Positions 41,003-54,042 of a stretch of 64,000 nucleotides of DNA are shown in pieces (position 1 is the first letter of the stretch; every line of letters begins with the position of its first letter). Under the pieces are notes generated by a model. That model was not told the DNA's origin. It was given only the letters and a program-made list of their open reading frames with translations, and did not search any database. This DNA is from Thaumarchaeota archaeon CSP1-1 (GTDB taxonomy: Archaea; Thermoproteota; Nitrososphaeria; Nitrososphaerales; Nitrosopumilaceae). A program made the translations under genes and the position numbers. The DNA is taken from NCBI GenBank assembly GCA_001443365.1, contig LDXL01000007.1, positions 62,001 to 126,000 of the forward strand, given 5' to 3'.

Positions 41003-41077
41003 GGGGCCGTCGTCTAGTTTGGTTATGATGCCAGCCTGGGGTGCTGGAGGTCGCAGGTTCAAATCCTGCCGGTCCCA
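41003..41077 (+). tRNA. tRNA-Pro (anticodon GGG)
   Basis: The cloverleaf can be drawn by hand. The acceptor stem GGGGCCG pairs with CGGTCCC (one G-U). The anticodon stem CCAGC/GCTGG encloses a 7-nt loop CTGGGGT, with GGG as the anticodon. The T arm is GCAGG-TTCAAAT-CCTGC. The 3' end has discriminator A and no encoded CCA, which the cca gene at 42445 would add. No intron is seen. Read as proline codons CCC/CCU. Confidence 0.92.
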
Positions 41078-51587: not shown

Positions 51588-52553
51588 TTGGATGAGTATT
51601 TTATGGAATTAATGGGTAGAGGATTTCGTCAAATAATGCAAGAATCCCCGCTGTATTTTCAAATACTTCTCAAATTTGCTGGTTACAAACTTTTCAATAG
51701 ACGTAGTCCACTTTATGGTTCAGCAGATATAATCAATGTATGTAACCTTCATTGTGATCATTGTTACTGGTGGCTAAATAGAAAAGAAAACGAGGAACTT
51801 ACTGTAGAACAATGGAAAAAAATAATTGATGAAAAATTCAAAAAACAACACGTTTTCATAGTGACTCTTGTTGGTGGCGAACCTATGATGAGACCTGAAG
51901 TTGTAGAATTGTTTGTTAAAGAATTTCCCAAAAGAGCATGTGTGGTAACAAATGGAACCTACCCTATTCCAAATCTCAAGGACATTTACTTTTATTGGAT
52001 TTCTATAGATGGTACAGAAAAAATCCATAATAATATACGCGGTGATGGGACTTGGGCAAAGACTAGAAAAAATGTTATTGATTATGTAGAAAAAAATGGA
52101 GAAAAGGCCTGGAAAGATATCTGGATAACGATGACTATCAACTCAAGAAACTACATGACTGTCAAACAAGTAATCGAGGAATGGTATGACTATTCTAATA
52201 AAATTGGATTTCAATTTCATACCCCATTTATGAAAGGTGATCCATTATGGCTTCCCTTTGGAGAAAAAAGATCTAAGGTGGTTGATGATATAATTACTAT
52301 GCAAGAAAATGGGTATAAAGATTACATTATCAATCCAAAAAGTCAACTGGAAATAATGAAAAAAAGTTGGGGGGGAAAAGGAACAACACCAATTGATTGT
52401 CCAACATGGGCTATTCTATCAGTTGATCATATGGGAAGAGAAAAAAGTCCTTGCTGTATTGGAAGTGCTGAAAATAACTCTATGAAACCAAGATGTGAAG
52501 AATGTGGTCTTGGTTGTTATTCGGTACTAATTGGATATGGAATGAAGGGTTAG
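51588..52553 (+). CDS. Radical SAM protein (MoaA/PqqE/HpnH-like), function unknown
   Basis: 321 residues. The radical SAM motif C-x3-C-x2-C is in INVCNLHCDHCYWWLN, about 50 residues in. LVGGEPMMRPEVVEL follows, typical of MoaA/PqqE/HpnH. A second cysteine-rich region ends the protein (SPCCIGSAEN; RCEECGLGC), a short SPASM-like auxiliary cluster site. No peptide substrate or partner gene lies close by. The start is TTG 51588; ATG 51603 is in frame. Confidence 0.82.
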   Translation: MDEYFMELMGRGFRQIMQESPLYFQILLKFAGYKLFNRRSPLYGSADIINVCNLHCDHCYWWLNRKENEELTVEQWKKIIDEKFKKQHVFIVTLVGGEPMMRPEVVELFVKEFPKRACVVTNGTYPIPNLKDIYFYWISIDGTEKIHNNIRGDGTWAKTRKNVIDYVEKNGEKAWKDIWITMTINSRNYMTVKQVIEEWYDYSNKIGFQFHTPFMKGDPLWLPFGEKRSKVVDDIITMQENGYKDYIINPKSQLEIMKKSWGGKGTTPIDCPTWAILSVDHMGREKSPCCIGSAENNSMKPRCEECGLGCYSVLIGYGMKG

Positions 52554-52851: not shown

Positions 52852-53292
52852 TTAAAATTTTACTCCAAATGTCCAGCGCCGATTTATTATGAAATTAATA
52901 GCTCCCGCAATGCATATTGAGATTAAAGCGGCTAACATGTAGTAAATAGTCAATGATTCAACAAGGACATAAATCGAGCCCAGTTGAACTGCCATTCCCA
53001 ACATACTAACACTAACAAATTTAACATACATTACTATTATTCTCTGAGAATCTATTGAATCTATAAATGTCCAAAATTTATTTAAAACAAAATTAGAAGT
53101 AATTGAAACTGAAATTGCTAATGCATAGGATAGAAAATACCATAAACCAACATATTCCGTTAGATAATAAAGAAGCCCCAGATTAACAAGAACCCCACTA
53201 GCTCCTACAGCGTAATACTTTGCAGCATGTTTTGCGAAAAGCGATAATCTACTTCTTTTATCCTGATCTCGTAATGTCATTAGCTTTCCCAA
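52852..53292 (-). CDS. GtrA family membrane protein
   Basis: 146 residues with four membrane helices, e.g. AVGASGVLVNLGLLYYLTEY and FLSYALAISVSITSNFVLNK, and the family end FIINRRWTF. GtrA proteins flip or supply lipid-linked sugars for glycosylation of cell-surface molecules. No glycosyltransferase lies next to it here. The plus-strand RNA candidate lies upstream of its 5' end. Confidence 0.85.
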   Translation of the reverse strand: MGKLMTLRDQDKRSRLSLFAKHAAKYYAVGASGVLVNLGLLYYLTEYVGLWYFLSYALAISVSITSNFVLNKFWTFIDSIDSQRIIVMYVKFVSVSMLGMAVQLGSIYVLVESLTIYYMLAALISICIAGAINFIINRRWTFGVKF

Positions 53293-53463
53293 GTTAAGAT
53301 GTTACTAATAAGTAAAATCCTGAACTCTATCTGAATCATTTAATTTTAAAATTTTACAAGGTTTTTTCCATTGAAAAATAACATAGCCTCAAAAAATTTA
53401 TAATTAACCAATAATAATTGTAAAAATTATAATAAAATCTTAAATAGTTTAAATTCATATACT

Positions 53464-53596
53464 AATTGATGCGAAAGGATGCAAATCCTATCGATTAAAA
53501 CCGCGTGGCTCCGCAGAACATAAAGTGAATGTCAAAGGTCTTGATGACTAGACAAAGAGAGGAAATCTCTCAAAGTTCTGCATAGGGAGTCACGCC
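53464..53596 (+). ncRNA. Candidate structured noncoding RNA, unassigned
   Basis: About 133 nt with strong helices. Hairpin 1: AATTGAT (53464-53470) pairs with ATCGATT (53490-53496); inside it GGAT/ATCC closes a GCAA tetraloop (GNRA type), with GCGAAA bulged on the 5' side. A long second helix: GCGTGGCTCC (53503-53512) with GGAGTCACGC (53586-53595), continued by GCAGAAC (53513-53519) with GTTCTGC (53575-53581). Inside is GAGAG-loop-CTCTC (53557-53571). AT-rich TATA candidates lie at 53440-53456 and a T-rich stretch follows. The GNRA loop exists only on the plus strand. The region has no usable coding frame and interrupts very AT-rich surroundings. Confidence 0.65.
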
Positions 53597-53604
53597 ATTT
53601 CTAT

Positions 53605-54042
53605 TTATTGTTTAATAATGTCAACTGAAACTGGTCCTAGAAGATTACCATTTGGATCTATAGTAATTTTAACTTCTTGCTTTTGAGTAATTATGATTCC
53701 AACATTACCAGAATATTTCCAAGTATAGTAGGTTGAAAAACCAGTTTCATGAGGAGTTCCCTTTAAAATGAAATTCTCTAAATAACGAATCGATTCACCA
53801 TTCAATGAAATAGTCAAAATTTGTGGACTGTCCCCATTAGGCACAAATCGGTATGCATATGTTCCTTCTTCTATTTCAAATGAATCAGTAAAAATCCCAC
53901 CTTCATAATTTTCCGGATTGGCTAGTGTCACATGAAAAATACTATTCTTATCCTCAATTTCTCCATTTTGAGTCCCAAAAAATCCAATCGCTACAGCTAT
54001 TCCAACTGCAATAGCAATATAGCCTCCAAATTTTGCCTTCAT
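53605..54042 (-). CDS. Membrane-anchored extracellular protein, function unknown
   Basis: 145 residues with an N-terminal membrane helix (IAIAVGIAVAIGFFG, about 9-23) and an external beta-rich domain (EIEEGTYAYRFVPNGDSPQI; FSTYYTWKYSGNVGIIITQ). Not recognised. Its end is 9 bp past the RNA candidate on the opposite strand. Confidence 0.65.
   Translation of the reverse strand: MKAKFGGYIAIAVGIAVAIGFFGTQNGEIEDKNSIFHVTLANPENYEGGIFTDSFEIEEGTYAYRFVPNGDSPQILTISLNGESIRYLENFILKGTPHETGFSTYYTWKYSGNVGIIITQKQEVKITIDPNGNLLGPVSVDIIKQ

Follow-up and report, generated by a model that had tools for sequence, protein, structure and literature searches.

Introduction

What kind of gene occupies the gap between two protein-coding genes of Thaumarchaeota archaeon CSP1-1, where a first-pass annotation had reported a structured RNA with no match to a known class? 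The stretch of DNA that we analysed, called the window throughout, is 64,000 nucleotides long, and the gap is bounded by a GtrA-like gene pointing away from it (52852-53292, minus strand) and by a convergent gene for a 145-residue protein (53605-54042, minus strand). The family of this archaeon, Nitrosopumilaceae, ranks among Earth's most abundant archaea, and knowledge of its regulatory RNAs is sparse.

Our analysis indicates that the gap holds a stand-alone RNA gene of about 135-145 bases (approximately 53469-53612, plus strand), which we call the mini-ORF RNA. We infer from sequence alone that it represents a new, family-wide RNA class with an obligatory mini-ORF and no match to any known RNA family. 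The order of its elements is a BRE/TATA promoter, the start codon of a leaderless reading frame, a closing helix of 10 + 7 bp around two hairpins, and a T-rich tract.

Results

A fold supported by covariation

The window interval folds with a minimum free energy of -51.7 kcal/mol, as against -26.7 ± 3.5 kcal/mol in dinucleotide shuffles (z = -7.1; none of 200 shuffles is as low), while the opposite strand, over a slightly longer stretch, folds less strongly (z = -4.7). Across 76 diverse homologues, two-sided compensatory change occurs in 30 of the 33 helix pairs, a number that none of 500 shuffles reaches, and standard pairs fill 90.9% of pair cells, as compared to 33-45% when the partners are slid as a control. 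Because this alignment was fitted to the covariance model it leans towards that model; however, the earlier count on a MAFFT-based alignment with a first hand-written structure agrees (16 of 33 pairs two-sided, 0 of 500 shuffles). We regard the RNA structure, itself an inference from sequence, as strongly supported and very likely correct.

The outermost helix, P1, has 10 bp formed by the arms GCGTGGCTCC (53503-53512, plus strand, as are all parts of the RNA) and GGAGTCACGC (53586-53595), with two-sided change in 8 of 10 pairs and 93.5% of cells paired. P2 continues it with 7 bp, GCAGAAC (53513-53519) facing GTTCTGC (53575-53581), where all 7 pairs change on both sides and 96% of cells are paired; both 3' arms are placed by the covariation alignment. 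Inside lie P3, a two-part hairpin at 53530-53554 (53530-53533 with 53551-53554, and 53537-53540 with 53546-53549) that is seen in the window fold and by covariation, all five of its modelled pairs changing on both sides in the 76-sequence alignment, and P4, the hairpin GAGAG-GAAAT-CTCTC (53557-53571), near-invariant in sequence and 97% paired. The P4 consensus across genera is AGGNAAUCU, replaced in the third subfamily described below. P4 is possibly a binding site, for which no partner has been identified.

The first-pass annotation had claimed a 5' hairpin, a 10 + 7-bp stack, a multi-stem interior and a 5-bp hairpin, and the interval does fold as described; its bounds, 53464-53596, come close to the extent of the RNA, and the conserved pairing in relatives that it had named as a condition is overwhelming. 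The GNRA hairpin that it had singled out at the 5' end is present, but lies within the mini-ORF, and no other helix is so poorly conserved (pairing in 76% of its cells versus 90-97% in the others, 76 sequences).

Distribution and genomic neighbourhood

Of 61 relatives searched by blastn, 21 gave a hit to the element, a count that includes L021, probably a coding match, which was set aside together with the weak hit L233. With the covariance model R1, the RNA is found in 225 of 250 Nitrosopumilaceae genomes and in 127 of the 131 good ones, at 1-6 copies each, and homologues come from, among others, Nitrosopumilus, Nitrosarchaeum and Nitrosotenuis. The search of family genomes gave no copy in genera g5, g8 and g13. 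Outside Nitrosopumilaceae there was no significant listed hit in 300 genomes of the order and 151 of the phylum, nor in 24 genomes of other families searched with lax filters and the broader model R2. Two metagenome-assembled genomes titled Nitrososphaeraceae hold strong copies (L064, L093); the title of L093 is probably a misnomer, since its coordinates equal those of G082, a genome placed in the same family as the window. Tandem copies about 190 nt apart occur in one genus-g15 genome (L199, 1192-1308 and 1501-1616; also L222).

Model R2 brought up a third, very divergent paralogue subfamily (34-42 bits) with a different interior. In its 12 loci (L278-L289, 3 kb each) the mini-ORF and P1 are kept and P2/P4 are swapped for the hairpin GAGUGAGGAGAAUGCUUUUCACUC, so that the interior of the RNA appears to be exchangeable. 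Viral copies can be discounted: the five pattern hits in IMG/VR are apparently chance matches (with the model, two reach about 14 bits and three get no score at all), the two contigs with genes listed carry phage structural genes at the hit site, and phage records gave no match to the RNA.

The ancestral copy stands tail-to-tail with the convergent gene seen in the window, c1, which is not part of the RNA and encodes a membrane-anchored protein without a Pfam match. This arrangement is found in the commonest gene orders and in many genera, cluster c1 having more than 80 members. A second group of copies lies tail-to-tail with a DUF1246/DUF1297 (PurP-like) gene, and the remaining copies have many different neighbours, some of them co-directional. 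At most loci, the commonest orders included, the nearest downstream gene is opposite in direction, and since there is usually no same-direction gene downstream, the RNA is not a leader. The neighbourhood survey showed no conserved processing or export gene adjoining it. Further upstream in the window, an open reading frame at 51588-52553 (plus strand) with a CxxxCxxC motif (CNLHCDHC) probably encodes a radical SAM enzyme.

A reading frame conserved without its peptide

The main feature of the RNA was missed by the first-pass annotation: its 5' part is a leaderless reading frame of 8-9 codons. In the window this frame spans 53469-53498, where the weak 5' hairpin also forms, and reads ATG CGA AAG GAT GCA AAT CCT ATC GAT TAA (MRKDANPID*). 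A mini-ORF of this length is present at the 5' end in about 98% of 187 distinct copies: in 169, exactly 8 or 9 codons run from ATG to a stop, another 15 obey the rule with GTG or TTG as start or with a start displaced by a few bases, and 3 are exceptions. At seven loci that have lost the ATG (L081, L109, L137, L082, L027, L071, L182), an in-frame TTG or GTG is kept three bases further on, giving a frame of 8 codons. Among 143 distinct, unfiltered 5' ends the first frame-0 stop falls exactly at codon 10 in 131, while in the other two frames stops scatter without a peak.

The frame has been maintained through repeated change. On a tree built from the RNA body, with the mini-ORF bases left out and changes counted as minima, stop identity switches among TAA, TAG and TGA at least 21 times, the start among ATG, GTG and TTG at least 6 times, and the length between 8 and 9 codons at least 6 times. 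A stop is kept in 21 of about 24 stop-codon changes (p ∼ 6e-8 against a null of 1/3), where the total includes two lost stops and genus g11. The losses are in L020, L212 and apparently genus g11, in which G013 has TGT where others have TGA, and could reflect decay or tolerance. The g11 loci (L251/L257 in G013, L258 in G031) are weak, divergent syntenic orthologues without the early stop.

The encoded peptide, on the other hand, is free to vary. The 93 distinct ORFs give 83 distinct peptides, with Met the sole residue conserved family-wide; the peptides of different lineages are unlike (MPKDIIPID, MSLVIKSGD, MLVQCRMMD, MTLVVRAMD, MQKDAKSTA, MQKRVNYTA), and paralogues within one genome encode different ones. 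In close, one-step pairs 36 changes are non-synonymous and 2 are synonymous, against an expected synonymous share of 25%, with the caveat that these pairs are not independent. The third codon position is not where variation is greatest, and the changes cluster in the GNRA-like loop.

The rule also holds out of sample, since in all 12 of the distant third-subfamily paralogues an ATG or GTG opens a frame of exactly 9 codons that ends in TAA, TAG or TGA just before P1. Moreover, a pattern holding nothing but this grammar (TATA, 22 nt, RTG, 24 nt, TRR, 2-6 nt, GCG) picked up 27 of 32 family genomes, where all of the listed matches resemble family copies and none has TGG at the stop. The reversed pattern gave 1 match in 40 genomes, and 8 outgroup genomes gave none.

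Because start, frame, length and stop are kept while the residues vary completely, we conclude that the former are under selection, and because selection acts on start, frame and stop and not on the peptide, we conclude that the mini-ORF is translated. This inference is strongly supported and very likely to be right, but there are no ribosome-profiling data behind it. With amino acids changing freely inside a preserved frame, what the cell seems to need is the act of translating.

Promoter, spacing and 3' end

The TATA-like tracts noted upstream in the first pass are confirmed: a BRE-like AAATC and the TATA box TTAAATA (53440-53446) together occupy 53435-53446 and are kept in nearly all copies. 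From the first T of the box to the start codon the distance is 29 nt in the window, with 22 nt between box and ATG, and 57 of 74 diverse copies show the same value. A distance of 29 nt from TATA to start fits a leaderless archaeal transcript. The spacer from stop codon to P1, 4 nt long in the window (53499-53502), measures 3 nt in 25, 4 nt in 43 and 5 nt in 6 of the 74 diverse copies.

Further upstream lies TGTAAAAATT (53419-53428), whose position relative to the start codon is constant (-50 to -41). Over 66 diverse copies this element carries 1.4-1.5 bits at -50, -47 and -46, as compared to a mean of 0.44 at -100 to -66. It is AT-rich, and its spacing from the BRE/TATA is fixed in most copies. 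By eye, it was not evident at the RNase P, SRP or 16S promoters. It may be a transcription factor site, which would hint at regulated transcription. At the other end a T-rich tract (53597-53613) is the probable terminator; most copies have a TTTT run near P1, beginning at most 10 nt after it in 140 of 187.

Known RNA classes

In Rfam 15 at the gathering threshold, a check that the first-pass annotation had set, neither the window interval nor 20 homologue loci gave a match, and thus its claim of a structured RNA without a known match stands. The only match in the whole window is a tRNA at 41003. At E ≤ 10 the interval gave only a chance mir-383 match (14.4 bits, gathering score 70), and the homologue L028 gave none. 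The resemblance to the c-di-GMP-I riboswitch, already called superficial in the first pass, is just that: there is no GEMM match and the downstream neighbour is convergent. A cis-regulatory leader or riboswitch more generally is rejected, a co-directional downstream gene being absent at most loci. The genome has its RNase P RNA (RF00373, C5:38880-39158) and SRP RNA (RF01857, C10:7828-8141) elsewhere, and ARAGORN gives only tRNA-Pro at 41003-41077 and no tmRNA.

An archaeal C/D box sRNA, which would need a box C (RUGAUGA) near the 5' end and a box D (CUGA) near the 3' end that together form a k-turn, finds no support in the alignment: the RNA opens with a start codon whose neighbours vary, and box D is lacking ahead of the 3' end; nor is there, on the alignment only and without a 3D k-turn model, an ACA after P1 as in an H/ACA sRNA, the T-rich tract standing there instead. 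Complementarity to 16S/23S rRNA in six genomes was no better than in shuffles. As for a dual-function sRNA, which would require a translated short ORF and a conserved functional peptide, the evolutionary signs of translation are strong, with RNA-level function and the transcript itself inferred; the second requirement is not met, since the peptide varies. The literature searched describes no thaumarchaeal RNA of this kind, but subscription journals were not covered, and the transcript could have been noticed before.

Discussion

We propose that the mini-ORF RNA is a new class of stand-alone, ribosome-coupled regulatory small RNA, a reading that we hold with only modest preference over its alternatives (probability about 0.55). 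A dedicated promoter, a leaderless ORF of 8-9 codons at the expected 5' end and a stop 3-5 nt before P1 are there to be read in the DNA, as are the covarying junction body, the T-rich end and the near-universal, multi-copy presence in Nitrosopumilaceae. The function, in contrast, is inferred, without transcript, ribosome-profiling or protein data, and the regulatory role in particular is an inference because nothing identifies a target or partner. Weighing against the proposal are also the early stops lost in L020, L212 and apparently genus g11, the lack of rRNA complementarity above shuffles, and the few genera without a copy.

How could such an RNA work? A ribosome would load on the 5'-terminal AUG, read 8-9 codons, and pause or terminate against P1. 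A terminating ribosome with the stop in its A site would cover some 5-7 nt at the start of the 5' arm of P1, and with these bases inside the ribosome, translation is predicted to open the base of P1. Translation would then be the switch or the anchor of the RNA: either the body (P2-P4) is delivered to ribosomes, or its fold or lifetime is altered with translation activity. The body may act in trans, probably via a protein recognising P4.

A bolder version, to which we give rather less than even odds, is that of a ribosome-docking RNA, which would enter ribosomes by translating its own sequence-indifferent leaderless mini-ORF and would be held or switched there by the helix that lies 3-5 nt beyond the stop. 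Its logic would resemble that of tmRNA without descent from it, and it would be almost universal in a dominant family of marine archaea.

Could the RNA instead be a micro-mRNA for a functional peptide of 8-9 residues (a signal, pheromone or small toxin), with the structured part as a stabilising 3' UTR? Start and stop are conserved, the 36 to 2 excess of non-synonymous change could mean diversifying selection, and paralogues of one genome encode different peptides. However, family-wide conservation is limited to Met, variability does not peak at third codon positions, the variable sites sit in the tetraloop-like loop, no conserved processing or export gene stands beside the RNA, and the RNA body is conserved far better than the peptide. 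We consider this unlikely.

Equally improbable, in our judgement, is a purely non-coding trans-acting RNA in which the 5' hairpin merely happens to create the reading frame. The ORF does overlap the hairpin, whose constraint accounts for some base conservation, and genus g11 lacks the early stop. But three stop and three start codons interchange, indels come in threes, stop placement is frame-specific, unrelated sequences fill the same frame, and the 5' hairpin is itself poorly conserved.

An attenuator, in which ribosome occupancy of the mini-ORF controls termination at P1 and the T-tract and read-through yields a transcript antisense to the gene that converges on it, either c1 or the purP-like one, is very unlikely: the T-rich tract directly after P1, the stop just before P1 and the common tail-to-tail neighbours would suit it, but neighbours are diverse and some are co-directional, there would be no need for the P2-P4 interior, and the codons are not enriched for one amino acid.

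If the ribosome-coupled reading is right, the class would have no described parallel: an RNA in multiple copies, found almost throughout its family, in which translation of 8-9 codons is preserved as such while the peptide drifts. It would offer a precise handle on leaderless initiation and on the use of ribosomes by structured RNAs in archaea, and ideas about it can be tested in existing cultures and published marine metatranscriptomes.

Among RNAs of ocean plankton, Tan1 of marine Euryarchaeota (229 nt) and Yfr103 (290-328 nt) are candidate ncRNAs (PMC5069720) that, like the mini-ORF RNA, are multi-copy or abundant, structured and of unknown function; they differ in organism and length, and the relevant sections of PMC5069720 hold no mini-ORF rule. 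The bacterial dual-function sRNAs SgrS/SgrT and Spot 42 are likewise small stand-alone RNAs with a short translated frame. Their ORFs, however, are leadered and specify conserved functional peptides, whereas the mini-ORF RNA lets its peptide change and has its ORF at the very 5' terminus, with a fixed spacing to the closing helix. tmRNA, too, is structured and engages the ribosome via a very short frame ended by a stop; the mini-ORF RNA has no tRNA-like domain or resume codon, and has a start codon and promoter of its own. Finally, the mini-ORF RNA has no downstream gene, its unit ending after P1, which sets it apart from uORFs and leader-peptide attenuators with sequence-free peptides; yet it would share with them the principle that what matters is the act of translation beside a helix and not the product.
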